Below, in pieces: positions 7,701 through 32,730 of a DNA stretch of 64,000 nt. The position numbers were made by a program, and so were the translations under genes. The stretch lies in assembly GCA_963920765.1 (NCBI GenBank), contig OY987242.1:12178789-12242788 (forward strand). Reading direction: 5' to 3'. The DNA comes from Ulota crispa. Taxonomy: Eukaryota > Streptophyta > Bryopsida > Orthotrichales > Orthotrichaceae. Below the pieces are notes generated by a model that saw only the letters and a list, made by a program, of their open reading frames with translations, had not been told where the DNA came from and did not search any database. The number at the start of each line of letters is the position of its first letter. The stretch's first letter is position 1.

Positions 7701-10700
7701 TGATACAGCGTCACCACGATGATGCCATGCGTTGGCTTTCAGTAACGCACTTCCAGACTTCTCTCCGGCCGCTTTGGTGATCCAATACAACCTGCCTCAT
7801 CAAACACGATAGTTCATTGGCAGTTGGAAATCAGATTCAACGTACATTCGATAAACATCTCGACCGAAACATCTCGGTCTAAACAAACAGATCGACTGCT
7901 CAATAAATCCACTCACACAGGGCAAGTCATCTTGTCATTTTCTTATACTCTCTACCCTCTTACAGTCCATTCAGATATTCATGCACTTCTCCTAGCTCTT
8001 TGCAAAAAGTTTGGAATGCCAATTCAGAATTCACGGAGAAGTGATGAAAACTGAATTACACAAGGAGTCAATCGATCCCTCATCACACCACAAATGATGT
8101 TGACTTCGAACATCTACCTGCCTCTAAAACCCTCCTGTGGGAACTACTCGAGAAACAACTCCGAGAAACAGGATCACCAGCAGGGATACTTTGTACACGT
8201 CGAAAACATTACCAACCATTGTGGAATACCAATTTTTGAAGCCTCAAGGACGCGCTATCTGTGCACAAATGTAACATACTATGGTGAGGTCTTCCACATT
8301 GACACAGATGATACGAGGGTGCTATTGTTCAAGAAACAAGTTCCTCTTTCACTTTCCATTAGACAAGTCCGACACATGATTCATGTGCCTGACTTGTGGT
8401 TGATGTGACTTTGGACAACCTCAACACAATGGTCAGTAGCTTGTGGCAAACTTCATATGTTCGTTTTGAGACCTGCAACTGCAGCAGATAAAGCCAGTTC
8501 TACACTCTTGTCAATCAGGCGTTCAAGGCTTCACCCACAAGCAGGTGACAAGCAGGTAGCCACGTGACAGCAAAAAATGACTTTCGAATTTCCCGCTCCA
8601 TAGGGCACTGAGCATGCACTGAAAGCTCTCCAAGAAGACCCTGGGAGAGCCACATAGGCTAGCTTACTGAGCATTCGAAGCTTCAAATCTTGATCCGTCG
8701 AATCACTGTGGACTTCTACACTTTGGCTGTAAGAATATGAGTGCAAATAGCATACCCTTCTTTCGCCCCAATACAAACAATCGCAGCCAGCAGTGCAACT
8801 TCCATATGCTCCATGTCCAAGACATGTCTATGCGCCACAAACCCGTGCTCCTCATTGCGACCGTGGTTGTGAATTTCCTGGCGTGCAGCAATATCCCCAG
8901 CTGCTTGCGTGATGGCGTCTTGAGTTGCCGACATTGCGGGTGTCAAAGCCTTCAGATCCAAAGATCAAACGTGAGTCTAGACACCAACTTCCACGTCAGA
9001 TATTTGACACGACCATGTCTCATATCCGCAATCAAGGGATCCCCTCATTCCATAAATTGGTCAAGAACGGGGACTGAAAATGTGAGGTGCACACTACCTT
9101 TTAACGACTTGCAATTTTGAGCTGACATGTCTGACCAAAGTACACGTGAGGAGTTCCATGGATATGTTCTATCTGGACCCATTTCTACGACACGCAATCC
9201 TTCAGCCAAGCCAATCAGTCATCCAACTCTCACTGGAACTGTTCAAAGAGGCTCACGGGACTGTGGGGTTCACACAATAATGCAGGGAGTCACCACTACT
9301 GCAGGAATTCAGCGCACAGCCATGACCTAACCCTAAATGCTTCTTGGGCACAAACACGTTCAAAATGGCGCGATCACTTTGCTGCACGGACTAAAGGAGC
9401 AGAAACACCGGATCTAGTTTCTGAAATCTCCTGCTTTCTCCAAAAACCTACTACATGAGGAGACACGGCCCATGTGATCAAAACGTTCGTTCATCCGGGT
9501 TGTTGGACTGTGAAAAACTCAATGAAAGACACGAGTGTCTCCACGGCAATTTGAGGAATGGAGAGGAATCGTGCGCATGCCTGTAAAGCATCGATTGCGC
9601 TCCATGCAATCCCACCACCGGTCACCAACAGGAGAACCGATATGCTCATCGCGCCAATAGTCTCAATTTTCCCATAGCCTGCATCATAAATAAGACAGAA
9701 TGATGCATGACAATGTGCGAAAAAGGCATGAACAACGCATATCGAGCATGCTGAAATTGAACGATCAAAACCTACTTCGTCACAGCATCACCGTATCTTC
9801 GTGACACAATGCAAGGAAAACCGTGGAACAATCCCTTGTGAAAGTGTTCCAATCGGTATATCCACGTCTTCCTAATTGACTCTACTCCAAACAAGCTGAT
9901 GACCTAGTACCACATCCAGATTGTACCAGATTAGTAGATTCAACTTCCACGCAGAGTTTTACCGTACGGATGCTCTTGATCTGGTGGCGCTTTCGATGCC
10001 TTCGAACACCACAATGCTACTCCACTCAGACCCTAAGCCAGATAATGCAAGCCACTTCCTTGTCATTGCTCCTGCACGAGAACATAGTGCGCAAGCCAAA
10101 GTGCTTGACAATAACCCTAAGTCTCTCGGCTTCGACGCAGGATCGCAAAAGACACGATGACGTACCCTGATTCCAAATACGTTCGTCAAAAACTATGCAT
10201 GCATTGGGCCCCTCAAAGCTCAAGTGAATTAGTGCACAATCTCGTTCACGAATCCACAGTAGATTGCTATGGTAAGTTCCACGACATCTACAGTACGGCG
10301 TTCGAGAACATTTGCTAAGACATCCAGCCAACAGAGTAAAGATCACATACAATATCTGACGCAGAATGAGCTGCGTCCGCAATGATAGCGGTGCTCCCAG
10401 ATACACAACCTGCTGCAATTTTGCATGCAGTCAACACGATGTCAGACCAGAGCCCCCATCGCAAGATCTTCTCCCCGTATGCTCCGAGCTTCTCACGAGA
10501 CTCATGGTCGTCATGCCCGTGGGTATCGCCCATGTGGTTTCGCCTTCCATGACTGAAAAACCGCCTCCACTCCTGCGTGTTGGCCGTAGAAACTTTCCGT
10601 CCCATCATTGCAGCTCTAGCAAACTTGCTCGACCAAAACAACTGGCTGGGCAGTGGTGCAAATGAAGAAATGGACTTGTGGGTGTGAGCAACGTTGTTTG

Positions 10701-10731
10701 ACCTGACTGCCCAGAGTCCTTGCTTCCCCAT
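4732..10731 (-). CDS. MTPC1: MTPC1-type cation diffusion facilitator (metal tolerance protein)
   Basis: Twelve in-phase exons (minus order): 10731-10351, 10032-9963, 9678-~9581, 8949-8756, 7791-7676, 7498-7402, 7230-7146, 6724-6662, 6444-6339, 6131-5785, 5045-4954, 4828-4732; about 581 aa. CDF proteins exchange Zn, Fe or related divalent cations for protons across organelle membranes. Recognised blocks: GSTAIIADAAHSASD (first metal site), SGVALWCSKASKAPPDQEHP, ETIGAMSISVLLLVTGGGIA, ANAWHHRGDAVSTLVALIGV (second site), LLDPIAALLVSGMI, IRQLRGRRMGSIVEVDVHM, VSEIFVHI. The N-terminus before residue 80 is basic and Ser-rich, like an organelle transit peptide. Histidine-rich stretches occur near residue 90, in exon 4, and at great length in exon 10. 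The end of exon 3 is uncertain: either a GC donor at 9580 or a GT donor at 9544. The ATG at 10731 is chosen because the 98 codons before it look like intron or UTR. Confidence 0.93.
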
Positions 10732-11364
10732 TTCAAAATACCGAATCGACAACGTCGTTGTGGTCCCTCCGCTTATTCTATCTTCGCGCTCTAAAGGGCA
10801 CAAAAAGTAAAACAACAAACCTTCCTTGGGCTGTGAGCTCAAGTCCAGTACACGGGATGACCGGGCCTTGATAAATGGCCATGTTCTCAACTTTCGCAAT
10901 CCAAAATTCTCTACAGGTCGAAAGCATGTGGGCTTCGAAGCATAGGACCCAAGGATATCTTCCATACAACTAAAGCAAAAATAAAAGTGCCTGTAGAAGA
11001 TTCCACAGGTGGATCGGAACGGCATCTATCACAATGTCGTCAACCCAAAATTTCTTCAATCTTCACCTCCCCGCACATAATGGCTAAACCCCCCTTCGAT
11101 CACTAACCAGCCCGCTCCTCATGTACTCCTTGCTCGCAAACTGATACAGCTACCAGCGAGGATCAGCACATACTTCCAGAAATCCAGGTTGCTTGCAAAG
11201 TCATTGGCATCAAAAGACAGGTTCTTTAGGAGTAAAAACAAACAATCACTACATCAAAACAAACGCATAAGGAAGCTCTAAATGTTTCACAAATTGCACT
11301 GAACATAATTCAAAAAGGCTGGGCATCAAGCTGAAGAGACGCAAATCGAGACACAAACTGACTC
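10732..11364. other. Upstream region of the MTPC1-like gene
   Basis: The exon-1 reading frame stays open up to 11025, including a second possible ATG at 10965-10963. The composition of that extension is not convincing, so I treat it as 5' UTR, intron or promoter. No other gene is seen. Confidence 0.4.
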
Positions 11365-12527: not shown

Positions 12528-12872
12528 TTGCCTTCTCTCTCGACAATGCAACAACCCAGGATCCGCACAACGGTTCAAATTTTCAGGGATGCAATCTGCC
12601 ATTGCTCATATGGCTCTGCAGAAAACAAGGTGAGGAGTGCAAAGAGGAGAAACGCAAGTCTGCTATCTGACGTCCACGTCAACAGTGCCAAGTAAGCATA
12701 TTTTGGATCCCGACGTGGACGGTTGGATTGTTTTCTTTTTTTTAATTTGCTAGTGGATAGCCTCAGCATTTTTGAAATAGATGATGAATTTGCCTAATTC
12801 CATTTGGATTTTGAGCCTAGTTTTATCTCTGCCTAGATTTTAGATCTCATTGTCGAGGTTGATTAGATGGTA

Positions 12873-13736
12873 TTAACCCTTAAACCACAAAAGTCCGTTC
12901 AACAGTTGGTTGAAAGTTTGGGTAGGTTCCTATGAAGATGATTTTTGGTGGATGTTTCTGAAATTTGGAGGCAAGGTCCACACAATGAATGCCTTTGTGT
13001 GGGAGAAAAAAAAAAAAAAAAAAAAAAAACTCCAATTGGATGCTTGAGTAAAAAGTTGTGCTGCCCAAAAAAATTTGGGCACCTTGGGCAATTTGGGCAT
13101 TTTTGGAGAATCTTATGCTAAAACTCTCATCAACTTTTGAAACTTGACATGTATGTAACTAATAAAATATGGTGTATAATTAGTTTCTTCTAACTTCAAG
13201 TCCTATTATCTTGCATTTCATAAACTCAAAGTTCTTGAAACTTTTCTGTCATATTCTGAATGTTTGCCTCTAACTTTTCATTGTTCGGATTTCAAATAAA
13301 AAACTTCTTCATTGCACAAGAAATCATGAAAAAATGACTAATGTATTGTCAATTCACTTAACCACCTTGCATTGCAAGTTGGTTTAGAATAAACTAGATT
13401 CTATATTTGCTTCTAAAATTTTTCATGAGTGAATCTAACATCATATACTTGTGAAGGGTCCAAAATCTTGCTTTGGTATAGAGCAAAAAATTTATTTTAG
13501 AAGGGCTTGAAATTTGTTGACAAAAAGTTGTTTTTTCTCACTTCAAATATTACAACCTTACAATCTATGTGGTCAAATAGGCTGAATTTTTTTTCACACA
13601 TTGCCTTGTGTATAACATTTCTACATAGTTGAATCTCAAAATAAAAGTTTTTATTTTGAATTTCAAATAAATCATCAAAAAATGGCAATTTTGGTCTTAT
13701 TTTTCTATGCAACACCCTTTAGGCTTTAGGGGTTAA
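12873..13736. mobile_element. TTAA-flanked element, family P-like, 864 bp
   Basis: Starts TTAACCCTTAAACCACAAAA and ends with GGCTTTAGGGGTTAA. Both ends carry TTAA followed by CCC in the inward sense. The interior is AT-rich, non-coding, and has a 22-base A tract (about 13009-13030). The interior differs from the 230-bp family P copies, so this is a related but distinct non-autonomous element. Confidence 0.6.
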
Positions 13737-13816
13737 TGAAACAAAATTTGTGGAAGTGTCTTGACAATGTGAAATCCCTACAACAAGTATCAATGAACAA
13801 CAACCATCATTGTCAA

Positions 13817-14319
13817 CTAGTGCCCAGGCACACACTTTGTGCGAGTAGGACATGCATAAGTAATGCAACATTCAACTTTACAAAAAATTAATATCTCACC
13901 AATTAATTAATCTAGAATCTAATCATGATGTAATATTCAAATATAAAAAATCAATATCTCACAATTGGTGTAGAATCTAATCCTCATGCATCATTGTTTT
14001 GGTCCTTTTTTGAAACCAACAATACCAATTGCTTTCATCACAATGCCACTTTTTTATATTTTGCTAGGAGGCTCTTGACATTTTATTGATTTCTAGCACA
14101 TGGTTGGAGGGCGTTTGGTGTTTTATATTTGGTGCATCCTTTCTTATTTCAACTTCCACCAAAAGATTATACAAAATCTTGGAAATGGACATGGTTGTAG
14201 AGCACTTGGTGTTCTATATCTTGGGCATCCTTTGTTGTTTCAACTTACAACAAAAAATTCTAGAAGGTTCTAGAAAAGGACGCACTTAGAGAATCCTCCC
14301 ACTTAATAGTATAGATAGA
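13817..14319 (-). mobile_element. Non-autonomous Helitron, 503 bp
   Basis: On the minus strand it begins TCTATCTATACTATTAAGTG, a typical plant Helitron 5' end, and terminates in CTAG preceded by a short hairpin (GCACA...TGTGC). Insertion is between A and T, as expected for Helitrons. A homologous 503-bp copy in plus orientation lies at 37670-38172. No Rep/helicase is encoded. Confidence 0.82.
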
Positions 14320-14841
14320 TAATACAATTTGAGAAGAATGCACTTGTTACTTAGTAAATCAAAACATTACAATGTTGAAAAAAATAGTTCAATCCACAAA
14401 GTTAAAACAAATGTAAATCAAAGAAACATAATGAGTTTTTTCTTCCATTTCTTCCATAAGTAACCTTTAGAATATCAATCAAATCACCAAAAAAATCCAT
14501 GTAATGCAAGTATTGTATAATCACGAGTGTATAATCCATGCAAAAGGTAGTAAATAAGGTGATTACAACTCAATATACAATTGAGCATTTGAGCAATTTT
14601 ATCACACTTAAGCTATCATAGATTTCATGGACGTCATATTGGCACTCGAAAAATGATCTCAGTGCTTTTTCAAATGCATGATTAGATACTACACTAACAA
14701 TATATGATTCTTCCCAAGTTCCGATTGAAAGTGTACTTCAAATCAATGTTTGGTTTTGATGTCAATATTGTGCATAGATTATGCAAGAATCTAAACGTGT
14801 TGATTTTGAGTAGGTTACAATCATGTATAGTGGTTTATGCT

Positions 14842-15303
14842 TTAACCGCTTAACACCATAGCAATGTATTTTGGTGTCAACATAAATTTGAGGTGAAATG
14901 TTTTCTATGTGTGCTATTTTACTAAATGCCCATGAGGACGTTTTTTGTCCTCTGGCCTGAAAAAGCATTATTGGTACAAAAAAAAGTCATTTTTTTTATT
15001 TTTTATTTCCCAAAGTGACCATAAACACATGATCCATCACAAAAGGTAAATAACAATCTTATCAAATATACTCATATTTTTAAATAACTCAAATTGTGAG
15101 AAAATTCAAAATCACAATGTTAGGTCCTAAGCTGCCCTTATTACAACTTTCTTGAGGTCAATGAGCACTTTTGACTTTTGAAACTTTCCAAAGCAATACT
15201 ATTGGTGCCCATCAATCAAAACACTATTGAAGTTACAATATAAACATTGTTAAAGCTACAATATGGGCAGGCCACGGCCACCCACTTGACGTTTAAGGGT
15301 TAA
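14842..15303. mobile_element. Possible TTAA-flanked element
   Basis: Left end TTAACCGCTTAACACCATAG, right end GACGTTTAAGGGTTAA. Termini are weaker than in the other TTAA elements and no sister copy is seen here. Confidence 0.4.
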
Positions 15304-18300
15304 ACAAATATTTTGTTCAAAACAAAATATTTTGAACCCTCTACAAGGCCCTTAAGATTTTACACTCTTAACATTTATTAGGCCTAAACTGGGTACATTA
15401 GAAGCATGTGTGAAGTGTCTCTACCTCATATGACTTTCCTATTGTACACCACAAAAACCATGATTAGAAAATGGCAATCTAAGACTATGTCACAATTTCT
15501 TAATTATTCTCCTATTGTTGTACACAATCATAACTAAATGTTACCCTCACAAGTACAAGGTTGAAGATTCTAATATAGAGAAAAAGGACCATGGTAATAT
15601 GTACATGTAATTGTGACGCCCAATGAAAATTGAACATGCCAATGTGAGCCATGATTGTAGTCAAAGGCATAGTAAGGTGTAAGGAATTTTTGTTATCCCA
15701 AAGTAAAAATTTAAAAAATTAAGGAGACCCCTTGAAAGAGGTTCTTAGGGCCCTTGTGGAAGACTCATATTTTTTCTAATGAAGTTGTTATTAAGCGTCA
15801 TAAACTAAATATTTAAAAACACGTGTTTATGGCATTTTCATTCAAGATTTTGTACTACACTATCCATTCTAAAAGTTGATTCCAAAGTGTTCAAAGGGTA
15901 AAGAGGAGCTTCAAGTATGCTAGATCTTGGAAAATCAATCAAACTGCTAGTTCTTAAAAAGCTTGTAGTGCAAACTTGAGATACCATAAATTGGTTATGG
16001 ACATACAATCATGCTATGTCCTTTAACTTTGTATTTGATAGGTGACCTTAATTTGAAGTTTACTATGTCAAAAAATAGTTGAAATTGTTTGATTACTTTT
16101 GATGTTTTGAGTCCTTCAAGATAAAAAAAATTACTGCCTTTCAACTTGTATGTGGTACAATTAAGTTTTTATTTTATTTTATTTTTATCTATGTTGTAAT
16201 GATTTTAAGATTTTAACAATTGTAACTTGAAGAAGTTGATAAAACATATAAAAAATTTGGCTTTTTCTTCTAATTATAGAAAATTTCAAGAATCTTAAAA
16301 AAGGGCTCGAGCATCTGAATGTCAAGGAATGTAACAAAATGTCATTGCTTTAAGTTTTATTATAAAAATAATTGATGATAAAAATTTGTTCTAACTTGTG
16401 CTTACTCAAAAAATTATATAAAAGGATGGATCTAAATCGAATCATTATAAAGAATTCATCGATCTCTTGTATGACCTTCAACCTCAGTTTTGCTTAGAGC
16501 AAAAAAAACATTATCATTATTCTTCCATTTGCAACACCTCTTTTATTTTTCAATGCCACTTCTTTGTGCTTTCATTGATCTTCTTTATTTATTTTATTGA
16601 TTTTTACAACCATACACATCAAGTCTATGCTAAAATTCATCATTTAAAAATTGTGTTTGTTGATTGTGGTTTATAATAGAAAAAAAATACTTTTGAAATT
16701 TAAATCTTTATGTTGCATAGATGTAAGTCTCATAATACAACAATCATGGGTACTCTTTTTTCTACCTTTCAATTGACTTTATAGATATTATTGTTTATTC
16801 TTTGTTCTAACTAGTGTGAAATCTACAATCTCCCTCCATTCTACTAGTTTTTATACATTCAATAACTTACTCTCACTTACAAAAAAAATTATGACATTTA
16901 CTTTCTTGGACAAATTTATGTTAGACATTTCAAAGGGCACACTTTTCTTGATACGCTTCAACACTTCAACACTATCAAACATGCCCTCATTCCTCTCATT
17001 GGTCCTCACTCCTCCATCTTACATAGTCTGCTAGTAATTTACATAGTACCAGTACAATATATGGTGCATCATATTACAAAAACAAACAAAGCAAATCCCA
17101 TAATTTGGCAAAAGCACTAAGAAATCCTATGTTATCTTTTACAAAGACAAAGATATAATTTCTCTTGCATCAAGTTGAATCTTCCATATATTGTAGTTTT
17201 TGTAAAGTTGCTCTAAAATTCAAACCTTTGTAGTGTGCTTGATTTATATGGAATATTTATCATAGAGCTACATATTTTGACAAGTTTTTAATTAACACTA
17301 CTAGTTTAAAACATCCCAATTTTAGAAGTGAAGACAAGGATGTGGCATGTGTACAACACTAATCGTTATACTCCAATATGTATTAGATTCCAATATCAAT
17401 AGGCTTCCTAAGTGAATGAAATTTCTTGGTCAAATGTAATTGGAAATTCAATACTTCCTGTCTTAGCAAATTACTTGACATTCAACTTACACACCTTTGC
17501 CATTCACATATACCATAAATTGTATCAAAAGGAATTTCAAAACCCTACTAGGGTGCTCTCTTTGTCTAAATGTAATTAGCACCTTTCTAAAGTTAATCTT
17601 TTTTAGGATCTCAATTAGAAAGCATGTTCTTTTTTATAATCCCAAGCATATTTGTGTAGTATTCTAGATAACCACTAGAATTTCTTACGTATAGCACTGT
17701 TCACATCAAATATAAAGGGGATTTTCCTAATACATGGGATTTGTTTGACTTTTTATAAAAATGCATGATTTTTCAGATGTTTTGGTGTCACCCAATATTT
17801 AAAACTATAGTGTGATTTGAAATAACATCAAGACACATTTTTAATATACATATATAAAAAAAATGTCCTAAATGATTGGTTCACAACAATTGCAAATATC
17901 CTAAACAACTATACAATGACTCAATTATAGTTGTTTAGAACATTTACAATTGTCGTGAACTGGTTGTTTATTGCATGATTTCTTCTAGTATGTTGAAAGT
18001 AAGATGAGGAAAATACCAATCTTACCTATACAAGTCTTAGAGGGTATTGGATAACACTAAAGCAAAACTCCTTGTCAAGTGATGTTGTGTTGATATTTAT
18101 GCGATTTCATTCAAATTTACATTAGATTCCATATAAAGTTGGATTAAATCTATTTCAAAATTGAACAAATTTGAATCAAATTTGGATCAAATTTGGATCA
18201 AATTGGATGTGTACTGTACAATAAAAACAAATGCTATTAAATGGGTCAGGTTACTCTTAGTATAAACCATTTCCTATGTTTTATTACAAACTGCTTTAAT

Positions 18301-20148
18301 CTTTTTTTACCAGGCATTGCATTTTATTGCATGTTGTGTGTCTTCTATCGCATAGTGTTGTGTTGAATTGTTTTTTGGATTTATTAGTCCAACAAGCATT
18401 ATACACTCATGAATTTTGTGCTGTTGTCTACCATGTGGATTTATAAGTTAAATCCATGTTGCATATCCTTGTTGGCTTCTTTTTCAGCAATTATTGGATT
18501 AATAAGCCTAGTAAATTAGGCATTTTTTGTTGCCACAATGTTCTCTTCTCTTTGAAGCTCTCCAACAAAAAATTAAAACAACTTTGTTTTTTGAATTCCT
18601 GCACATGTGCTATACACACCTATGTCCACAATGTAAATTATAGAAGGCAAAGTAGAAAACTCTAGACGTCATTAGGTCAGCGTGAGCTACTACAAGTGGT
18701 TCATTAATTCTCAAAAGAGTATGATGTTGGTATTCACCAATTCAAATAAGAAATAACAAATGCAGTTTGTGACAAATTCCACATTTTGGTTGCTTTTTAT
18801 TATCCATAAGTGTTGTCAAAATTTTGTGAAACTTAATCTTTATTTTTTTGTGGGTAGGAATTATGTAAAAATGTTATGATGCACTTTTTTCTTGGTGCAT
18901 TTATGATAATATGGAGAATATCTCCATAAAAGCTTTGATGAAGAGGTCAACAATGCAAGGGCAAAATACAAAATCAAAAGAAAGAAACAACAATTGCTCC
19001 AAGACATGAAGCATCAAATTTTCTTTAAAGGAAACTTGATCAATTTTACTTCCATTTCAAAGTAATATTGATATCTGTACTTGATTCACCATGCACTTAC
19101 ATCATCACAATTATGTGGGTAATTTCTTTATATCACAACTTGTTGAATTTGGAGATTCTTGTTAATTGAAGCATTCTTCTGTAATAGACATAATTCTCAT
19201 AAAAAGACTTGGTGAATAAAATTTTGATACCAATTAAGATAATCAATGTAGGATCGTTAAGTAAGAGATAAGTGTTTGGAGTTTTCAATCAATTTAAAAT
19301 CCATGAAACGAGGGGGTACATCTTTGACAAGCAATAGCTATAACATTGTGTTACAAGAGGTGAGGTTTAAGTTTTTTTTTGCAATATTGAAAAAAAAAGA
19401 AAAAAATATTGTATAATCATATTTGATGATATTATAGAAAATAGGGTGCCTTTGAAAGAACAATCTATGTTCGAAGTTGTGACTACATGAATACTTTGAG
19501 GAAAGCACATGTAAAAGAAATTTGTGATGTGGTATTTTATATGAATATATTGAAAATTTCAATAAACTAAAAATGAATCATTAATGAAATTGTCAGCTTT
19601 GTCATCCATAGAAACATCAAGTTTTATCCACAACACCAAGACATGTAAATCAAAAACTAAATAATCAAAAATGGTGCATTCTCTTCTTTATGCTACTTTT
19701 TACATGTTTTATTTTATGTGTAAGAAAATATTATTCCATTACATTAAAAGGTCAAGTGGAACAAGTTGTTATGTTTCCACTTTATTCAATGCGTTGTCCA
19801 CATTGCCATTTTAAAAGAAATCACTTGCCAAATACATCTACAATATATTCAGAAACAAGGTTGAGACAAATCAAATCTATTACAAGATCAGAAAAATATT
19901 ATCCAATGACATTAAACGACGGTTTTACACACGCAAACTTGTAAATTTTTAAAAACGTATAGTGGTTTTTTTGTTTTAAATACATAAACACAATCTTATG
20001 CAATAGTTTTGATTTTGATAAATATCATTGTGTGTGTCATTTAAAATATTTGGATATTCTTATACTCAATACAATATATATTCTCAATGAGTATATATGT
20101 AATTTCAAGTTTGAAATAAAGCACAAATTATTTTTTTGACTGTTACAG
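15304..20148. other. AT-rich intergenic region, no gene recognised
   Basis: About 4.8 kb of very AT-rich DNA with only short open frames. One frame at 19690-19944 (+) contains KYYSITLKGQ and MRCPHCHF, faintly resembling the start of a pepsin-type domain, and lies just 5' of the aspartic protease exons. The missing first exon of that gene should lie in this interval. Confidence 0.5.
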
Positions 20149-23100
20149 GGAAAATGGGTATTGCTTGAAGTTGACTATTGGTAAAGCCAGAAAAGTCTAC
20201 AAGTTTTATATTGATACGGCAAGTTCACTTACATGGCTTTTTTGCAATTGGCCTAAAGAAAGAAATCAACATCAAGTAATGGTAAGACTATCATACATTA
20301 AATACATAGACAAAATAAAATACTTGAATTTTAGATTTTAGTATCATTGCTTAAGATGCATTTCTATAAATTTCCAAAATGTTTGATATACATATATGTA
20401 AATATAGATATAAATAGACATACGGAATTGCTAAAACAACACCTTCATATTTTTAATGTCACACAACTCACACCCCAAGGTTTATTGTGAGCATGCAAAC
20501 CTTCGGTAATAAATTTGGTTAAATTTAGCAAAATTTCTATCTCAAATTTGGTTGCTCTAAAATTGTATTGTAAAAACAAAGAGGAAAATTTAAAAAGTAG
20601 TCAAAATTTCAAAATGTAAAACTGTCTTTGAGGTGAGGTGCAATTTGACATGCTCCCCTATTGTTAATGGGACCTCATATTAAGACAACTTGAGTAGCCA
20701 TCAATCATATTTGATTCCCCCCACTTAGCTATAATGCAAAGTGTAAATAACACCATATTTGTTAATTTGGGAATTTTCAGACAATTTGGGACTTTTGAAG
20801 GTTTTAGTTGATCCCCTAAAACCGTGTTTGCAGTGTTTTTTTGGGTACACATGCCCTCACTTGAGAGGAGGAATTTGCAAGGGAAAAAATCTTAGTGGGT
20901 CAAACCAAATCTGGTAGCTTTGAATTTGGTTTAAGTTAACCATTTTAGTTTAAGGTGAAGTTTAGTTTGGGAACCACAAATTCCCAATTTAATGAATATG
21001 GTGATAAATGTGCTTTTTATTCACTTGCCCTCCCTTAAACGACTACTTGTAGTTATTGTGTCATGGCAGGGTTTGGCGCTTGTACAAATGTACTAAATAG
21101 TCTTTTAGTGGCTTCTTGATAAAATTGTTAGTGTACACTTTGCAAATGTCCAAGTTTAGCATTATCCCTAAACCCTAAAACAACTATGGAAGATTGATGT
21201 TAGACATCACTAATTCACATAATTGGAGAATATATGAAATAAATTTAAAAGTTACCATTTATAACCTAATAAGCTACTTTACATGTAGCTAAAAGTTCTT
21301 AGGCAAGAAAAAACTTGTAGACAAAATACTAAACTAAACAAGAAAGTATTGCAACCCGCTTACTACTAAAATTGAAGGTAGGTTGCAAGAAATCCAACCT
21401 ACAACCTATGTCTTTGGCAAGTAAAGCTAAAAACAAAAAATGAAAGTAATAGCGCTGATGCAAACTAAGAATTTAATGTTAAATTTCTTAATTCAAGTAA
21501 TTTATCATTTCTTTAATTGTGGCATTACCACATTTATGGAATAAAGGAAAACAAACTTGGTTTATTTATTGAAGCTTTAGTGTATTGTTGCTTTTTTGTT
21601 TGAGATTATTAATTTTTAATGGAATTCCAAAATCTTATACTTTTAATTGCAGATTGAAACTCAATTCCAAAATAATAGAGGTGAAAGAAGTGAAACAACC
21701 CTTGAAGTCCACATTAAGACTCTTAGCATTAAAATCTCAATATGCATGCTCACATTGTACCTTGAGAGGTGAGGTTAACAACATGAGGGTATTCAATCAA
21801 TTGTAGTAGTACTTCAAGAATTCAAGTTGATCCTTTCCTTTGCATTTATTACTTGAAGGTGATAAACAGATGATTGAATTGTAAGTTGTATAACAATTCT
21901 TTATGTCATATTCAACTAAACATGGATTATTCAAATTTTATAAGTAACAGCCCAAAAATGGCTTTTGTTTCCAAAATATTGGAAGGTACTTACAAAACAT
22001 CAAGGATGTGTTCAACTTAGAATTTATGCAAAACCATGGAAGAAATGTTTGTAAAACATTATGAAATCTTCAATGTTGAAGGACTCATAAAGTTTATAAT
22101 TACATGAGTTCATAAGTAGTTAAATATATCATAAATCTAAAATTCTTGTTTATAGACTACTATTTGGTTTTAAAATCATGTCATATTTTGCATCATTTTG
22201 GTGCATAGTCAACCAAAATTTGCGCAAGTAGATGAGGTTTTGTTGGTACTATACTATCTACTTCTAATAAAAACATTTGTCCCAAATTTAAGTCACCTTT
22301 TGGAATCATGTCATGAAGTGCCATATTTAGAACTAGAAAATATGTTTTAGGTGAAATACATTTGCACCTTTTGAATTACAAAACATTTGCAAAGTAAAGT
22401 TGGATTATATAGGCAAGGTACGAAATGTACACTTATTTTGTCATTCCATTTTTGGGCCAATTTTTGAGAAAACTTATACATGCATGTGGCTTTGTTTTAG
22501 TTCTTGAGCTCTAAATTGTTATATTACTTTTTGTGCTTGTCAAAAATAACTTTTGGGTTTTTTTGGTTATGCAAAAGTAAGCAAACAACTAATTAATTGA
22601 CCTTTCTCTTAAATTTTTAAAATATACAAAACCTTCAACTTTCAAGAGCAAAAGCAAAACCACAAGCTCATATACTTTTCTCATGAACTAAAAAATATTA
22701 TGAAGTGGCAATGTGAGGAAATGTGGAATGCAAACTTCATGAGATGCCACTATGAACTGCAAGAGTGCTAATTCATGAGTAACGACCATGCTCAATTTGT
22801 TATTGAATGTTGTTGATGGATATATATTCAATTGTGTCATGGTTACAATGTTGGCTTTGGTATATTGCTCAAATATAATTGTAGGCCCAAGCGGAACACC
22901 TCAAATTGTCACTTGGCTAAACACATTGATTCTGAAAAACTGCCACCAAAAGATTGAATTTGGGAATTTTGAATTCATGTTTGGATTCATACACATTGAT
23001 TTAATAGCTACAAGTGAAGACAAGATTGAAAATTTCTAAAATAGGGACTAATTTTTTGCTTTTCTCCTCTTTCCAAAAAATGATCTTAAGTTTTTTCACC

Positions 23101-26100
23101 TCAAACCCATAAATGCTTTTATCAAAACACTAAGTCACAACATTGTACAAGCATGAGATCCGCAAACAATTTGCATGCTGCATGGACTTTGAGAAGCCGG
23201 AATAGTTGTGAACATTTTTTACCATATCTTGTCCTATTTCGCTTGAAGTAAATGTGATATATCATATCATCTTAATGAAAAAAATGAACACAAGAACCTA
23301 AACAGTAAGGTGAATGAAAACGTCAAGGTTTGAATGCGTGAAGAATGTTTAAATTCATTGATCAAAAATTGCTTGTACTGTATAAGTCTTAAAGGTTTGA
23401 AGCATCTTTGCTATATTTTAGTTTTACTATTTTTTACATTGCCCCATTTTTATTTACTCTTTCTTTTTTCTTCAAATAATTTTATCCTAAATTAGTTGAA
23501 ATAAAAGAAGTTCTAATTAAAAAAATTTACAGGTGATTTTTGTTTTGTCTATTTAAAAAAAATTGTAAACAGTTTCTAGATGAGAAACAAATACATGTTC
23601 AAAGCTTTTTCCAAAAAAAAAAAAAAAAAAAAAAAAAGCGGAAACTTTAAAAATTGTTGCATAAGTTTAGCAAAAACTACAAATTAATTATTAATTATAG
23701 GAAAAAAATGTTTTTTTAATATAAGTAAAAAAATGTATAATGTTTAAAAAAATTTAACTTTGTATTCTAAAAGACTGCAATATATCATAAATATATAATT
23801 ATTTAAATTTGTATCAATATACAATATTATCAAATTGCTACCATAAACCTTTGTGCATTCAATTTCAAAATTGAGAGTCTACTTTGGAAGCTAAATAATT
23901 AGTCATTTATTAAAATTTTCAAATAGTTGCTCTATCTATGTCAAAATACATAATATGATATTCTATTGTACTATTGATGCATTTTGATATTTCTTTGAAA
24001 CCGCAATTTGAATGATTATTTCAAGTCCCCCCTAGTACCTAGAATTAGTCACAAATGATGATCTAGGCACAAAGGTATAATTGCAACTTCCTAAACAAAT
24101 ACAGTTTGAAACAATGTTTAATCTTTTGCATTTACCAATGAGTGCAAAGTATGTTGTTTTTCATATCAAAAAAATGTAATCAATTTAAAATATACAAATC
24201 TGATTTTAGCTTATTCTTTACTAGTTTTCTTGTTAGTTTGAATATACCATTATTATTTTGAATTGGTTCTCTACTTCAAAATTATACTTAGAATTTTTTT
24301 GGTCAATTATATGAGTTCAAAATTTACAAGTTAAACATATGTGAGGATTTGTTTCAATACTGCAATTTTTAATACCAGAAAGTCATGTCCTTTAGTACTT
24401 CAATCATTTTTGTACAATTTGATAACACTTGCATTCAAATATTAGGGGCCAAATGGACTTTATGATCCATATAATGGTGCTAAGTTAATAAAACAAGATT
24501 CATATTTATGTTTACAATATAGAAAGTATGTAGATATAAGCTCCAAAGATGTATGCCAATTGAAAGTTCATTATGAAGATTCTTTCCATCTCTTAAGTGT
24601 TTTGTGTGAAGAAGAAGTTGAACTCCATAATCAATATGGCCAAAAGTTGTCAACTATAATGAAACTTGGGTACGATAGAAATTTGAATTTGTAGTATCTA
24701 TAAGTCATATAAACTACTATTGTATGGAAGCTAGGCCTTCTTATAGACATTTTTGCTTCATTGATGATGGTTGCACAAATAGAGTCATGCAAAGTTTGAA
24801 AATGGACTTTATTTGTGTGAACATTTTCTATACTTCTCTTTCTACAAAATGTTGAGATTTGTAAAAACAAATGTTTCCAAATTTACAATAGATTTGTTTT
24901 ATCTTGTAATAAAGAAAAAATTAATTAACATATTTCCTACTTTTATCTATTCTTTACATGAAAGTGCTTTCAAAAAATGTTAAGTTGTATCAAGCACATT
25001 ATAAACTAGAATAACACATAAATTATTTTCTTACATAACATCTATCAACATTCATTTAGATAAATAGCAAAGTCTAAGGAAATAAAATTCAAAATTGTAG
25101 CAAACTCCACTTATTTGTTTCAAAGTGAGCACTTGATTTCAAATCAAATATATTACACTCATGTAAACACATTAAAAATAATACCATTGGAGGGTTGTTT
25201 GAATAACACAAAATGGACTTTATTCTTATTAAAGAAACTTTGAAATTGACTTAAAAGGTAATTTTGTTCATGAAACATTAGATGTGGGCATTCTGTGCAA
25301 AACAAAGGGAAATACTATCCAAGCCCACAAACTTTTAACTATGATGGAATATTGGGTATGGAAAAGGGACCCAAGAGTATTATAGAAAATTTTAAAAACA
25401 GCGGAGTCATCAAATCATCTGTTTTAGTATTATGTCTTCGAAAAGAAAAAAATGTGGACAAGTCCGTTGGCTTTATCATCTTTGGAAAACCTCCTTTTCT
25501 TCAATTAATTGCAAACCACTTAAAGTGGGCTGAACTGGTACCATTTGGGTATATAGTGTGTTTTTTTTTTTTTTTTTTTTTTTTTTCTCCTCTCTTTGAG
25601 CTTCAATTACGAATAGAATTTATTTTCATGTAAGTTACATTATAGATGACAAAGCTCTAATTTTAAAATATACAAATTTGAAAACTGAAGTTACATTAAA
25701 AAACATTTGTTGTAGAGAAAGCAATTCACAAGCATATGTTGTAAGAGCAGATGTTATTGAATTGGGGATTATGAATACCAAACATGAATTTCCAAACATT
25801 AAATTTATGAACATTCTCATTGATTGTGGAAGTGCATCTATATTTCTTCGAAAAAATGTGTACGATAAGCTTATAGAAAGGGTAATGGATTAAAAAACAT
25901 TCAACAATACATCTGATGTTCAAGTACTCATCAATTGTAAATAAATTTATGGCAGATTTTAATCAAATTTATATATTTTGTATTTTAATAGAGCTTTGTT
26001 GAATTTGGTGAAAACAATAAGGTTGACCTCTTTAATAAATACAACATTATGTTTAAGGGAATTGATATGTGCACACTAAGGTTGATATTTGCACACCCCG

Positions 26101-27681
26101 TGGGAAGTAAATTATAGATTTCTACCATCAAAGTTGAGTTTGAGAATTTTGAATTCAAATTTGGACTTAGAGACAATGATTTCCTCTCAAACCATAAAAA
26201 CGTTGCAGTTGAACAACACTTAGTGAAAAAGTTTAGTTAGGGGAAAAAGTGTTACTTTTATTTTTGTTTGTAAAAAAAAGATAAACTTTTTCATTGGATG
26301 TTATTCAATTGCAACCTTTCTATGGTTCTAGAGTAAACCATGGTTTGTAAGTCCAAATCTGAATTCAAAATTCTCAAACTCAGCTTTTTGATGGTAGAAA
26401 TCTATAATTTACTTCCTAGGGGGTGTGCAAATATCAACCCCCGGTGTGCACATATCAATTCCCATGTTTAATCAAGATAAAATCTAATCTATGTGTGTAT
26501 ATAAAAATAATACAAAAATTCTGGGTACTTCATGAAATATGGTGCATATTTCTCGTACGTTCAGTCCAATTCATTTTTGAATTACTCTAAAATGTAATGA
26601 GATTTTTACTACCATGGTTACTTGTTATTTGTAGATAAAAAATAAAGTCCTACAATTGACATTTATTGGGGACTTTATGATATGAATATAATTAAATATT
26701 GATATTTTAAAATAAATTCCAATAGATCATGACTGTAGGAACAAATCTAAACTATAAAGAAGAAGCAATAGAGGATGAGACTACATGTCTACGATTTCCA
26801 CCACAGTAGGTTTTAATTGTGTAAAAATGAGAATATTATACATTATTTTTGTAAGAAATTTTCTTAACAAAGTAAATATAAAATGTACACATTAGATCTT
26901 GATCAAGTTACAAACTGATACAATTCTAGATATATAATTTGAGTACATTTTATGTGAATCAGTGGTGCAAATCCTCAATTGGATTTTGATACATTACGTG
27001 TTGGTGTTATTGGATTGAATGGGTTGCATTATATATTGATTTACCCAGATCAATATCTCAGATGGGAGGTATTTAATAACACCAAAGTACAACTATTCTT
27101 TTTATGCATGCCATGCTATTTACATAGGTATACATATTTAATTTTGACTATAATCATAAAAAAATTCTACAAAATTTTATTGGGGGAAATTCGATTAATT
27201 AGAATTTAATGTCTTTTTTTCCTTCACCTTTCAGCATCACTTGATTTGAAAAACAATAAAATATGAATTTCAATCATGGCTATTTTCAGGGTATGCATTC
27301 TGGTACTACTAGAAACTATTTATGTGTGGTGATGGAAGTAGAAGATGAAGATTCTAGGCTTCCAAATTACTTCGGAATTTTGGGAGGTAAAGCATTCTTT
27401 CTCATATACATTGATATTTCAATTATTGATTTATTTACATTAATCAGTTAATTTCTTTAATAAATTATTCCATTGCTGAATTTTGGTTTTTCTGTTTTTT
27501 TTTAAATTTGTATGAATAACTAACAGCACAAGCAATACAAGACACACTCATCATTTTTGACAATGAAAACAACGCGATTGGTTGGAAATCAAGTACATGT
27601 AATGAAGTCGAAAGTGAGTTGGCCATCATTGAAAATAACATGTATGGTCGTCCGCATAAGCGACCAAGATATCACCCATGA
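20149..27681 (+). CDS. Asp1/nucellin-like aspartic protease with altered active sites (5' exon not found)
   Basis: Eight exons join in phase without a stop: 20149-20281, 24446-24669, 25282-25548, 25635-25881, 26726-26805, 26963-27068, 27290-27386, 27527-27681; 435 aa. A pepsin-fold (A1) protease of the plant Asp1/nucellin type is shown by GYCLKLTIGKARKVYKFYID then TASSLTWLFC; LGCGHSVQNKGKYYPSP; YDGILGMEKG; SGVIKSS; ILIDCGSASIF; YPDQYLRW; YLCVVMEVE; NYFGILGA; DTLIIFDNENNAIGW. The catalytic motifs are abnormal: the first is DTAS (usual DTGS) and the second DCGS (usual DSGS/DTGS). Both aspartates remain. The signal-peptide exon was not identified; it must end with two bases of a split codon. Splice signals are intact and the frame is open, so this is either an expressed protease-fold protein with weak or no activity or a recent pseudogene. 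Intron 4 (25882-26725) holds a MITE. Confidence 0.82.
20282..24445 (+). other. Large first visible intron of the aspartic protease gene
   Basis: 4.2 kb, AT-rich, with a 28-30-base A tract near 23609-23637. No exon with protease similarity was found inside. A stretch near 22950-23000 resembles part of the MITE at 26057-26463. Other open frames look random. Confidence 0.6.
26057..26463. mobile_element. MITE, family M2, in an aspartic protease intron
   Basis: A 407-bp element with about 115-bp near-perfect terminal inverted repeats starting GGGAATTGATATGTGCACAC. Flanks share ATGTTTAA (8 bp, 9 bp with one shift), close to the 9-bp duplication of MULEs. The terminus GGGAATTGAT matches the element at 44162-44581. 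Confidence 0.82.
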
Positions 27682-28212
27682 CAATGTTTTACAATATCGA
27701 CATTCTTTCTTTTTAATACATGTAAATCCAAGTGGCTAAAGATGTAATAACAAATATATGTTTGAAGGCATTGTTTGAAGGTTCCAATCATTTTCCTAAA
27801 ACATTGTTTGAAAGAGCCTTTTGCAACAAAACAAGTCTTTTATTCATTTTGTGAATAATCACAAATTGCAATCACTAATCTTATATGAACCAAAAGAACC
27901 AAAAACAAACAGAAGAAATTGCAAATATGCACTGTGGTATTTGTAATTCTAACCCTGTAAAAGGCACTGAATAGCTTAGTTTCAATACAAGTCAAGAAGT
28001 CATTAAGCTTTCAAAAAAGCAAAATCCTTAAAAAAGTAAGCCAATGAAATTCTCATGAAAACACTACTGCATAATTTGAATGAGATGCTGAAAGTTCAAT
28101 AAGGGGGGTGGGCTAAAAAGAGCTGCTTACAAGATTCAATAACGCAACAGTTCATAGGGCTTGAGAAGCTAATCTTAGTGAGAGCCAGACCATGTTGTCA
28201 TTTGTTCCGCAT
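27682..28212. other. Convergent intergenic region
   Basis: Separates the stop of the plus-strand protease gene from the stop of the minus-strand PORR gene. AT-rich; should hold both 3' UTRs. No gene seen. Confidence 0.55.
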
Positions 28213-30577
28213 TCACCAGGGAATCTTTGGGGTTGAACTTCTACGGCCAATAACAGGGGTAACCCTCTCTTGGAAAGGACGCTCGAAATTCTTAACGTTG
28301 TTGGAGTCCAGCTGCTTCACTTCCATGAGCGCTGCCAGTTTCTCCTTAACAAGGACCAAAGGGTGCTTGTCCACAAGACAATATTGCTTACTAGTTCCAG
28401 ATCCAAGAATCTTTGCAAAAGCTCCCCGTAAGAACACGGTGTCACGAGAACCCTTTCTCGAAACATAAAAGTACTCAGGATGCCGAATCAGCATGCCACG
28501 TAACTGAGATAACCACCAAAGTAGTAGTGTCAGCAGTTAAAGTGGAGTTCCTTCGATTGGTGCTTAATGGTATGTTCACACTCGGTGTTAAGAGTCGTAG
28601 TAGCAAAGGAGAATTAGATGCATTTGGGCAGACCTTAAGCGCTTAAATGACCATAGGGCATAGTATATACTATATAAGTTGCCATATGATTGGCATTTAC
28701 TACCAATAAGAAGTTTTAATTTGGGATCTCAAGTAGCTCACTAGAACCGCTTTGATCTATTCTCCAACTTCTTTGCTGATCTCAAATGTAAAGAGGTGTG
28801 AATCTATTCCAAATACAAGAAAAACAACTCGTATTGTATTGGTCGCAACGGCACGCTCAGACGTTCAGGGGTTAGACTGCATTCATATTGTTAATACCCC
28901 TCCTAACACCAATTGTGAACATACCCTAAGGAAAACAGTAGAAAGTTTCGGAACTCACGAATGCATACACTCCACGGTACTTACACTAGTAGAAAAGCAA
29001 AACAAAACATGTGCTAAGTGACCGGTTCACGACAACATTGTGGACATTTACTATCATTGTGAGCTAGTCATTTAGGACACGTTTTTCTACTGGTGTAATG
29101 CTGTGTTTTCTACTATTGTTGTGAGCTCTGGAACTTTGAGACATAAGGAAAACAAAGCATACCTTTCTTGAGAAGCTGAATTCCTTGCGAAAGTGGGTGA
29201 GATGGTCCACCAACACTTGCTTCTCCAACGTAAGAGACAGAAGCTCTTGAATAAGAAGAACTGCGCGTTTCTCAAAGTGCGTAGATCGGCGATGGAGATG
29301 ACTCGCGTCCTGGTACGGTGAAGGGCACACGGCTCCTTCAAACTTAGACAGCCGATGATGTTTCGGTGTGTGAAGAAGCTCCGACGTTGATGGAGAGTCT
29401 GTAAAGCATAGGCACGGAGAAGACGTTCAGGAAAATAACTTATAGTGCATGACACTTATAAACAACAATACAAGAAATACTAAAGCACAACACATATACT
29501 CATTAGCTCAAAAGTCAAACCCTAAGCTTCATCTTGGTGGACTTGAATTTTTTATAACTTTTTTTTGACAAGGCCTTAGGCTAAGCACTTGAATTGGGAG
29601 TTGTTAGTTATAAGTGTCATGCACCGTAGTACCAAGAGATGAAGATAAAAAAGAAGAATCTGAAAAAATTAGGGTTTCGGCTTACCATGTGCAGCACGTT
29701 GTTGCTCTTGTTCTTGAGCTTTTCGTTCGTCTTCTGTAACAGCCAGTCGAGAGCTCCACCTGACGAGCTCCAGTTTCGGATCTTCGACGTCGAGAGGATC
29801 CTGGCTTGCGACAACGCGGAAGTACATAGGGTAGTGGTACACGAGGCTTTTTCTGAAATCATCAGGCAGACCGAGATCTCGCCCTAAATGTGCTATCTTT
29901 GACAGAGACAGCGTTTTGTCACTTGACATCATAAGAAGCTTGCGCAGCTTGGTGACAACCTCGTCGTCCATTCTCTTCCGCACTGCCAGCTCTTCATCGA
30001 ATGCTGCATCTGCTTCGGCTGTGAACTGAAACCAAGGCAGCTTGCCGATTTGGGAGGTCTCGTGGACGGTGAAGACAGCCGGGTACTGTTTCAGGAACGC
30101 GATCAGACGTCCCTCGCCCTTGAACCCTATGTCGTCCTTGTACTTCCCGAGGTCCAGTACTGTCATGGATCGGCTCGGCACGGCCCCGAGGAGCTCCTTG
30201 ATGTTCAATACGATTTTCAGCTTCTTTCCTCTCTCGATGATATCATCGAAGCCCCGATCTTTCAATTGCCTGCTGGTTCGACCTAATGGCCTCGATTTCC
30301 TACGAGCCTCTTTTAGGGTTAGGGCTAGGGTTCTCTTCCCCTGTTTCCCCGCTACCTCTTTTGTCCCAGGAATTGTACCAAACGCTCCGAATTCTAAAGC
30401 AATCCTGGAACTACAATCAGCGCTGCATGTCAAATAAAATCGAAGGCCTCGCTGTGAGAATTTGAGACTTAGGTCGGGATTCAATCGGTCGTGGATGGGA
30501 AGCTGTGGCGGAAAGAATTGCAGCCCAATCGTCCTTGCCAGATTTCGACTACACCTGTGCGCCCACGTCCTGGCCAT
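28213..30577 (-). CDS. PORR-domain organelle RNA-binding protein (WTF1 family)
   Basis: Three exons, 30577-29686, 29398-29163, 28503-28213; joins CAT G|AC and AAG|TTA keep phase; 472 aa. PORR proteins bind organellar transcripts and assist group II intron splicing. The N-terminus (MARTWAHRCSRNLARTIG) is Arg-rich without acidic residues, as in a mitochondrial or plastid targeting peptide. Then come GKKLKIVLNIKELLGAVPSR, LIAFLKQYPAVFTVHE, LSLSKIAHLGRDLGLPDDFR, LVYHYPMYFRVV, RAVLLIQELLSLTLEKQVLV, HLTHFRKEF and LRGMLIRHPEYFYVSRKGSR, the PORR hallmark order. The tail after VKEKLAALMEVKQ (about 30 residues) is not recognised. Family is secure; which of the dozen or so plant paralogs it represents is not. 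Confidence 0.94.
28569..28925. repeat. Family F foldback element with a TTAA element inserted
   Basis: The outer element begins GGTATGTTCACACTCGGTGT and ends ACACCAATTGTGAACATACC. It is interrupted at 28635-28875 by a family P element. The uninterrupted sequence is seen in a sister copy near 49885-49915, where GATACATTTG leads directly into TTTTAGACTGCATTC. Confidence 0.7.
28635..28875. mobile_element. TTAA-flanked MITE, family P, copy 2
   Basis: Shares the 230-bp body with the copy at 2525-2758. Begins TTAAGCGCTTAAATGACCAT and ends GTTCAGGGGTTAG. Its ends are confirmed by the interrupted family F element around it. It lies in the second intron of the PORR gene or extends to its edge. Confidence 0.75.
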
Positions 30578-30803: not shown

Positions 30804-31454
30804 TTAACCTCAAAACGACCCTGGAGATTCCTGAGCTTCTAGGAATTTGCTATAATTTGAATAAAAAGCCAGCATTTTGACAAACAGTATCAATTCTTTT
30901 TGAATTATAACCGTATAAAATCAAACTAGACATGTTAGAGATCACATTTGAAAAGAAAACACAACAATATTTTTTAAGGATTGAAAGATTATGATGGTTG
31001 ATCATGAGGGTGTTAAAATTGTGAAAGTGATTTGAAGTCTTTCAATCTTTTTTTCACATGTCAAATTTAAAAACTTAGTCACCAAAAAAATATGAGGTTA
31101 AAGGGCATAACATGCATAGCCCCAATCAATTCATGACTTCTCAAAACCTACTCCAGAATTTTTTTAAATGAATTTCTAATGTGATTTTTCCTTAAAGATT
31201 TAGGATATGGCTCATTCCCAAGAGCCCTCAACACTACATAAATTCAAGATTGCAATGAACACCCATGCACAAAATCTTGAATAGAAAAATCATAATCAGT
31301 CATTTGCAAAATCATATTATTGAAAATAAAACAAAACTTTGAAAATAATTCTTCAAAAATATAAGCTACTAATAATAGTATTTTGGTAAGGTTTTATTTA
31401 ACTTCATAAATTGGTCAAGGATGCATTTTGTCCTCAAGGTCCTTTAGGGGTTAA
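30804..31454. mobile_element. TTAA-flanked element, 651 bp
   Basis: Begins TTAACCTCAAAACGACCC about 230 bp upstream of the PORR start codon and ends GGTCCTTTAGGGGTTAA. AT-rich, non-coding. The right TTAA is shared with the next element, so two insertions abut. Confidence 0.6.
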
Positions 31455-32730
31455 CCCCTCATTGCCCAAGGCACCAGATTTTGCTATTCAAAATTTTTGA
31501 GGAAACTTTAAAACTCTATTGAAGGCACAAATTTCAGTTTTTTTCCTTTTTTTGGAGAAGTTGCAGGGTGAAGTTAGCTTCAAACTTCAATTCAAATTTC
31601 CTCTATATCTTATTTCAATTATTTTTGGTGGAAGGTAAACTATAAGCATACCTCTTGTGGCCAAATAGTGTTATGAATAGTGTTACAAAGCCCATGACAA
31701 GTTGCCACATTGAAAAGACGGGTGTCAAGTTGAGAAAAAAGTGAAAATTTCTCTTGAACACTCCCTTGGGTAGTAAGGGCCATTTTACTAAATTTTTGTC
31801 ATCAAATAAAATCTAAAAGTGCATTTGGACTAAGTTCACTTGGTATGTCTTTGTTATAAAAAATAGAATTCATTCACCATTGAATTTTCTCATTGATAAT
31901 GACATTTGGTCAATAAGTGAAGCTAAAGAGTTTCTTTGTGTCAAGCAGTTACGCTTTGAGAGTTGCATTGCAAGCTCATTTGTGGGACTATGGTCATGGA
32001 TTTGGAAGGGGGGCCATTAGTTTTGGAGCTGCCCAAAACTTCTAATGCAAATTGGCAACTTTTGAATACAAAATTGGAAAACAACCACTTAGGATGCTTT
32101 AGTGTTTATTGTTGTTTCTTGAAAACTAATAGCCCCCCTTCCAAATCCATGACTACATTTTCACAAATGAGCCTGCAAATGAGCCTCCAATGCAATTGTC
32201 AAAGCACAATTGTCTAAAACAAAGAAATTTTTTAGCTTCAATTATTGACCAAAAATCATTGTGAATGAAAATAAATAAATAATAAGTGAATTCTATTTTA
32301 TACAAAAAACACATACCAATTGAGATTAGTCCAAAAGCAACTTTAGATTTTGTTAGATGACAAAAACTTTAATGAAAGGGCCCTTACTACCCAAGGGAGA
32401 GCCCAAGGGAACTCTTCACTTTTTTTGCAACTTGATGCCCATCTTTTCAATGTGGCAACTTGTCATAGGCTTTGTGACACTATTCACAATACTATTCACA
32501 ACACTATTCATGATAAAAAAGGTATAGTGCACTTTAGCTTCCAAAGAAAACAACTAGAATAAGATATGGAGGAAATGAGAATTGAATGTTGAAGCTAACT
32601 TGAGCCCGCAACTTCTCCAAAACAAAAAGAACCTTAAAACAATAAAATTTGTCCCTTTAACAGGGTTTCAAAGTTCCTTAAATTTTTTGAATATCAAAAT
32701 ATGGTGCCCCCTTGTGCAATTAGGGATTAA
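31451..32730. repeat. 1.28-kb inverted repeat flanked by TTAA
   Basis: Two arms of roughly 600 bp are reverse complements. Matching pairs include TTAACCCCTCATTGCCCAAG with TGCAATTAGGGATTAA, GGAGAAGTTGCAGGG with CCGCAACTTCTCC, CCATGGATTTGGAAGGGGGG-type sequence near 32000 with CCCCCCTTCCAAATCCATGA near 32133, and CTTATTTC with GAATAAGATATGG. Transcripts across it would fold into a long hairpin. Confidence 0.72.

Follow-up and report, generated by a model that had tools for sequence, protein, structure and literature searches.

A moss aspartic-protease-like gene with DTAS and DCGS in place of the catalytic motifs

Known pepsin-fold proteins and the locus in Ulota crispa

Peptidases of the A1B family possess a signal sequence, a prodomain of about 40 residues and a Cys-rich NAP insert. 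The enzymes use two Asp residues in the motifs D[TS]G and DSG plus a Tyr in the flap, as described in PMC7284499. A homologue in which the two motifs read DTAS and DCGS is located in the moss Ulota crispa at positions 20149-27681 on the plus strand of the window, which is the whole stretch of 64,000 nucleotides that was analyzed (contig OY987242.1, positions 12,178,789 to 12,242,788; C1:12178789-12242788 in the genome survey). This focal gene is genuine and intact, and its catalytic motifs are unusual. By analogy, its product may be an A1B (TAXi_N-type) homologue that binds peptides in its cleft while catalysis was lost or is very weak, a reading with a probability of roughly 0.46, thus somewhat below one half.

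Pepsin-fold proteins without catalysis are already known in mammals, the PAGs, and some plant inhibitors also belong to this kind. The TAXI xylanase inhibitors, plant proteins of the same fold and the namesake of the Pfam domain, are non-proteolytic, and rice S5 ORF5 is reportedly an aspartic protease of plants whose special role lies in hybrid sterility. Unlike these, the focal gene, known here from its sequence alone, gives neither a sign of xylanase binding nor a link to reproduction. In buffalo and bovine PAG-1, an active-site Gly is replaced by Ala, which is said to push out the catalytic water, and the protein is described as inactive with its bilobed form kept, according to PMC3335542, whose passages on this exchange quote DTGS and DTGT as conserved without naming the position of the changed Gly. 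PAGs were reported to bind pepstatin, and the family has members called active and others called inactive (PMC6221303). The focal protein resembles PAG-1 in the Gly-to-Ala exchange at the active site (PMC3335542). It differs from this animal, placental protein, to which it is related via the pepsin fold only, in that the second loop is also altered (DCGS). The Gly changed in PAG-1 is presumably that of the first DTG, which would be the position of the Ala in the focal protein.

The focal protein, which retains both catalytic Asp residues, the flap Tyr and most of the fold-defining residues, would be N-terminally anchored or secreted and bilobed. Next to the first Asp, the Ala side chain would leave too little room for the catalytic water, in line with the proposal for the Gly-to-Ala exchange in PAG-1. 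Next to the second Asp, Cys instead of Ser/Thr would weaken the “fireman's grip,” which is made in pepsin by Thr33 and Thr216 beside the two Asp residues (PMC11313796). The remaining cleft would then bind peptides or protein segments that are left uncut or are cut very weakly.

Gene model and predicted protein

The coding exons at 20149-27681 were numbered 2 to 9, with a likely 5' exon as number 1. Joined in phase, the eight exons yield 408 codons plus a stop; an AG acceptor precedes each of them, and a GT donor follows all except the last. An earlier note on this DNA had described eight in-phase exons with valid splice sites and a frame open over 435 codons, and all of this was borne out except the count, which is 408 in this span and 492 with the 5' exon. 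The latter, which the earlier note had left to be found, is probably the stretch at 19690-19940 on the plus strand, from the first in-frame ATG to a donor, as predicted from its phase, since the donor end at 19940 joins exon 2 in phase 2. Its start is provisional: the true start may be farther 5' than 19690, or another 5' exon may be present.

All exons are on the plus strand. Exon 2 (20149-20281) carries the first catalytic loop with DTAS at 20213-20224 (codons GAT ACG GCA AGT), and exon 3 (24446-24669) the N-lobe including the flap YEDSFHLLS (24572-24598, placed by alignment) with the flap Tyr retained. Exon 4 (25282-25548) contains GCGHS and DGILG, and exon 5 (25716-25881) the second loop with DCGS at 25822-25833 (codons GAT TGT GGA AGT). 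They are followed by exon 6 (26726-26805), exon 7 (26963-27068), exon 8 (27290-27386), which terminates in FGILG, and exon 9 (27527-27681) with the C-terminal AIGW, a basic tail and the stop. The two changed motifs and the landmarks GCG, DGILG and IGW, read as AIGW, are thus all present, as the earlier note had reported. The G+C content of the coding sequence is 0.338 (0.42, 0.33 and 0.26 at codon positions 1, 2 and 3) and that of the introns 0.27.

A frame open by chance was ruled out by stop counts: codon-position-matched shuffles of the gene contained a mean of 30 stops and a minimum of 19 (n = 500), and the gene's own introns contained 35 stops per 492 codons with a minimum of 21 (52 overlapping stretches). 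The exon ends were selected by eye and to keep the frame, so that the recurrence of the intron places in relatives is a better check of the model than the open frame. Two relatives in the same genome, L015 and L017, were used for this purpose with a spliced aligner written for this analysis, which gave a bonus to the intron places of the focal gene and none to shifted ones, and thus favors exact matches and not near ones. Of the seven introns inside 20149-27681, 128/0, 202/2 and 409/0 (residue/phase) were at identical places in L015 and L017; 373/2 was exact in L015 only, with 370/1 instead in L017; and 441/1 was exact in L017 and, in a further alignment, also in L015. Two introns were displaced in both relatives: 291/2 was at 293/2, two residues off in the same phase, and 347/0 was at 348/1. 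The first intron, 83/2, also matched in L015 and L017 and was left uncounted because the 5' exons of these two models look spurious. In an alignment of the ordinary relative L024 with the L017 protein, introns were exact at 4 of 7 places, and one more was two residues away. As judged by these alignments, the focal gene shares its gene structure with related A1B paralogues, L015 and L017 agreeing with it in the position of most introns. A model mis-joined from unrelated open stretches would agree with exon ends picked by eye and frame and with the phase of the junction between exons 5 and 6, which differs from that in L015 and L017; it is extremely improbable in view of the recurring intron places and of Pfam matches that cross the exon joins.

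These matches were TAXi_N at full length (E 9.8e-19, 68.6 bits) and Asp spanning both lobes (E 6.9e-8, 32.7 bits); TAXi_C was reported for L017 and not for the focal protein. The protein is similar to the nucellin/Asp1-like branch of plant A1B peptidases (nepenthesin type, TAXi_N/TAXi_C) in these TAXi_N and Asp matches, the order of the landmarks, both catalytic Asp residues, as aligned, and the flap Tyr, an invariant column in a family alignment of five rows (5 of the 9 proteins modelled); each loop also keeps its Ser. It differs in that the D[T/S]G first motif and the DSG (D[T/S]G) second motif of active A1B peptidases are absent, with DTA(S) and DCG(S) instead, and in its flap YEDSFHLLS, without the DGSSTMG of YADGSSTMG in L024, which we take to be of the Asp1/nucellin type.

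At the N terminus, exon 1 encodes a hydrophobic segment, FPLY and a propeptide-like stretch, so that the order in the protein is the hydrophobic segment, about 70 residues and then the domain, with the start codon provisional. The hydrophobic 17-mer starts upstream of the ATG at 19690 and has a mean of 2.79, followed by FPLY; the same measure, which uses Kyte-Doolittle values, gives 2.41 in C2a and 2.52 in L014, two further relatives. A hydrophobic segment followed by FPLY occurs in the same order in all five genes of a cluster on contig C2, to which C2a belongs, and in L014; a scan of the upstream DNA of L015 (about 1.1 kb), L017 and L018 found no such motif.

Relatives in the genome and constraint on the protein

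The genome surveyed (G000) comprises 275 Mb in 157 contigs. A family search, in which 80 candidates were scored, gave at least 52 matches, and the focal gene itself was not among the matches listed. The clan contains at least 11 loci: the focal gene, L014, L015, L017, L018, L019 and the five C2 genes at 12.17-12.34 Mb. Clan models other than those of L015, L017 and the focal gene are partial. The loci L016, L020-L023 and L025-L028 were also fetched and stand outside this count, being ordinary, pepsin-type or not modelled.

The first motif is DTGS in 8 of the 11 loci, DTAS in two (the focal gene and L017) and DFRG in L019. The second motif, read in 8 of the 11, is DTGS in C2a, C2d (another C2 gene) and L017, DTGT in L018, DTGA in L014, DCGS in L015 and the focal gene, and DGSL in L019. 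The nearest modelled relative, L015 (C8, 12.54 Mb), therefore has DTGS/DCGS, and it is open over exons 2-7 and 9. L017 (C3, 14.83 Mb; G000:C3:14830500-14840400, 5121-9096) has DTAS/DTGS in a frame that runs uninterrupted for 381 codons, from exon 2 up to the stop, so that the DTAS for which a search of relatives had been proposed recurs in the same genome. The ordinary relative L024 (C3, 25.37 Mb) has DTGS/DSGT. One genome with DTGS/DTGS, DTGS/DCGS, DTAS/DTGS, DTAS/DCGS and a fully changed pair offers a natural series for the stepwise loss of catalysis, with which it could be measured what the fold does after catalysis. The fully changed pair is that of L019 (G000:C1:39170000-39179900, minus strand, partial model), in which DFRG and DGSL replace both motifs and TAXi_N still matches at 1.1e-20.

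Identity of the focal protein to the 8 other modelled proteins is 21-28%, with 23% to L024. A maximum likelihood tree of the 9 modelled proteins, C2a and C2d being the two of the five C2 genes included, grouped the focal gene with L015 (81/85) and L017 with L014, C2a and C2d (97/99); the focal gene, L014, L018 and L019 were flagged as long branches. The Cys codon of DCGS is TGT in the focal gene and in L015, and DCGS probably arose once and was inherited by both. The Ala codon of DTAS is GCA in the focal gene and GCG in L017, and DTAS seems to have arisen twice, in the focal gene and in the clade of L017, a preference over a single origin that rests on the tree with its 81/85 for the focal gene and L015. 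DTAS as an inherited state is disfavored, since the tree neighbors, L015 on one side and the C2 genes and L014 beside L017 on the other, keep DTGS. Deamination of C to T was ruled out as its source, because the step from GGN to GCN replaces G by C, a transversion.

Constraint was evaluated by asking if the focal protein keeps the columns that are invariant in its relatives, with held-out sets chosen by the authors, all five of which are given. It kept 21 of 22 columns invariant in L015, L017, C2a, L014, L018 and L024, while identity averaged 17% over the 195 remaining columns; 24 of 30 in the same set without L018; 29 of 38 (L017, C2a, L014 and L024); 25 of 31 (C2a, L014, L018 and L024); and 24 of 37 (L015, L018 and L024). 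Of the six misses in the 31-column set, four were conservative (M>L, L>M, I>L and Y>F), and the others were T>I and the G>A of the catalytic motif; the 37-column set also contained the harsher D>K, T>E and G>V. Tested likewise against L015, L018 and L024, L017 kept 28/37 and L019 23/37 columns; L015 kept 28/41 against L017, L018 and L024. Since invariant columns were kept, these comparisons speak for selection on the fold during much of the divergence, with the catalytic Gly given up, and for long constraint instead of old decay.

An old pseudogene was rejected by the open frame, the kept columns and the recurring intron places. The earlier note had also concluded that the gene is not an old pseudogene, and this held, given the conserved columns, the DCGS in an open relative and the second DTAS paralogue. 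The same three points make the altered or non-proteolytic role it had considered the likeliest reading, which is still one drawn from sequence. It had further counted an intact paralogue with DTGS, together with frameshifts in other accessions, as a sign of decay; such paralogues exist, and so do open relatives with changed motifs (L015 and L017), so that DTGS paralogues do not point to decay of the focal gene.

Several results weigh against a selected, cleft-binding protein. In some sets, between one quarter and one third of the columns tested were altered (29/38 and 24/37 kept), and the ratio of non-synonymous to synonymous rates (dN/dS) between the focal gene and L015 was saturated (NG86 0.81/2.89; maximum likelihood dS 27) and thus left unused. 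No relative passed for the focal gene among 3338 protein candidates (E 0.001), and none for the five-row family alignment among 5508 candidates (E 1e-5), in a protein set that contains moss proteins and whose word filter limits the searches. The gene is located inside an AT-rich block depleted of CpG and CHG with an excess of TpG and CpA, and its coding exons are depleted as well, with observed/expected ratios (o/e) of 0.45 for CpG and 0.48 for CHG. Finally, both Asp residues are kept, so that some activity is conceivable.

This last point leads to an aspartic protease that still works, its active site retuned to be slower or more specific, which is possible, if on the whole unlikely. Ala and Cys are small residues, both Asp residues and the flap Tyr are present, as is the Ser in each loop, and the combination of DTGS with DCGS in L015 indicates that DCGS alone is tolerated. 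Such a protease would have to cope with a Gly-to-Ala exchange at the active site that is held to inactivate PAG-1 (PMC3335542), and the flap sequence is altered as well. In the five C2 relatives, DTGS is retained and exons 2 and 3 evolve fast, as shifting substrate choice would give.

This cluster, L009-L013 (G000:C2:12.17-12.34 Mb), consists of five related aspartic-protease-like genes with DTGS that are open in exons 1-3. Exons 1-3 of all five genes were compared in ten pairs for the ratio of non-synonymous to synonymous differences (pN/pS), and exons 4-5 were read in two genes. The ratio was 0.24 in exon 1, with 49 non-synonymous and 67 synonymous differences in its 85 codons, and was at about the neutral level in exon 2 (0.94) and exon 3 (1.10). 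By stretch, it was 0.48 for codons 1-15 and 1.17 for codons 16-41 of exon 2, with the first motif inside the latter, and 1.10, 1.21 and 0.79 for codons 1-32, 33-60 and 61-80 of exon 3; differences in the aligned intron parts were 0.085-0.20. When exon 1 was compared with exons 2-3, a Fisher test gave P 0.0004 with counts divided by 4 for shared branches, a rough correction, for a contrast picked after the data had been seen. Pairwise omega values for exons 2-3 were 0.74-1.94 (NG86) and 1.12-2.40 (maximum likelihood) over the ten pairs and 0.95-1.29 (YN00) over 6 pairs; for C2a and C2d they were 0.59-0.77 over 262 codons of exons 2-5. These values are consistent with demands on the cleft that have shifted or become relaxed, and positive selection is not proven by them. 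The conserved anchor exon of the C2 genes next to cleft exons at about the neutral rate, the apparent loss of the catalytic Gly at least twice independently (the focal gene and L017) and the full loss of the motifs in L019 would agree with a clan of anchored aspartic-protease-like proteins that shifts from cutters to cleft-binding receptors or decoys, a plant counterpart of the PAG family; this wider picture is doubtful.

The AT-rich block and the neighborhood of the gene

Methylation of CG and CHG marks silent chromatin in plants. The AT-rich block around the focal gene (12700-28000) has a G+C content of 0.294, a CpG o/e of 0.25, a CHG o/e of 0.43 and a TpG/CpA value of 1.35, while the remainder of the window has o/e ratios of 0.70 (CpG) and 0.94 (CHG). 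Exons of the relatives are less depleted than those of the focal gene, with CpG/CHG o/e of 0.65/0.82 in L015, 0.60/0.85 in L017 and 0.58/0.77 in C2a. The footprint of the block looks like that of long CG and CHG methylation and adds to the points against the cleft-binding reading; it does not explain DTAS, because of the transversion.

This leaves the case of a gene that was functional until lately and is now methylated and drifting with the frame still intact. It would agree with the depletion in the coding exons and in the block together with the TpG and CpA excess, with a broken relic of exon 4 elsewhere in the genome and with the lack of any relative or expressed copy among the 3338 and 5508 protein candidates. 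Under neutrality, the frame would stay unbroken with a probability of about 0.09 at a divergence of 1%, and of about 0.009 at 2%, if indels are assumed at 10% of the substitutions, and 0.36 and 0.13, respectively, without indels; these small values at 2% divergence indicate that any silencing was recent. Also against silencing, DCGS is common to the focal gene and L015 and hence older, CpG is less depleted in the exons of the focal gene (o/e 0.45) than in its introns (0.22), and the G+C content at first codon positions exceeds that of the introns (0.42 versus 0.27). Recent silencing is less probable than a constrained, cleft-binding homologue.

The relic, L040 (G000:C1:15920500-15930400, 4762-5075; C1:15.925 Mb), is 3.7 Mb away, contains 2 stops and matches focal exon 4 at 73%. 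The match covers exon 4 and 46 bases of intron only, and no match to other exons of the focal gene was found in the 9.9 kb of L040. The differences by codon position (24/89, 22/89 and 32/90) and in the intron (9/46) are too small in number to be informative. At 26052-26483, within the intron that separates exon 5 from exon 6, the focal gene contains a palindromic element similar to miniature inverted-repeat transposable elements, with copies about 71-86% alike in L015, L021, L022 and L044. The comparison of element and relic covered loci other than L029-L039 (11 loci).

A search of the PDB with the focal protein alone gave no match; with the five-row family alignment, plasmepsin V and BACE1 lead among the matches listed (best 60 of 110), which is informative at fold level only. 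The literature searched contained no report of DTAS-type aspartic proteases of mosses, which is a weak negative.

CpG-poor AT-rich blocks are at 12700-28000 and at about 31000-32000 (CpG o/e 0.08-0.42 per kb), adjoining CpG-richer genes. A neighboring PORR gene on the minus strand (29669-30577) had 21 protein matches, and the three of them that name an organism are from mosses, Ceratodon purpureus (61%) and Physcomitrium patens (70% and 71%). Further open frames on the minus strand at 54469-55770 and 10315-11025 encode an aminotransferase class-V homologue and a cation-efflux homologue, respectively.

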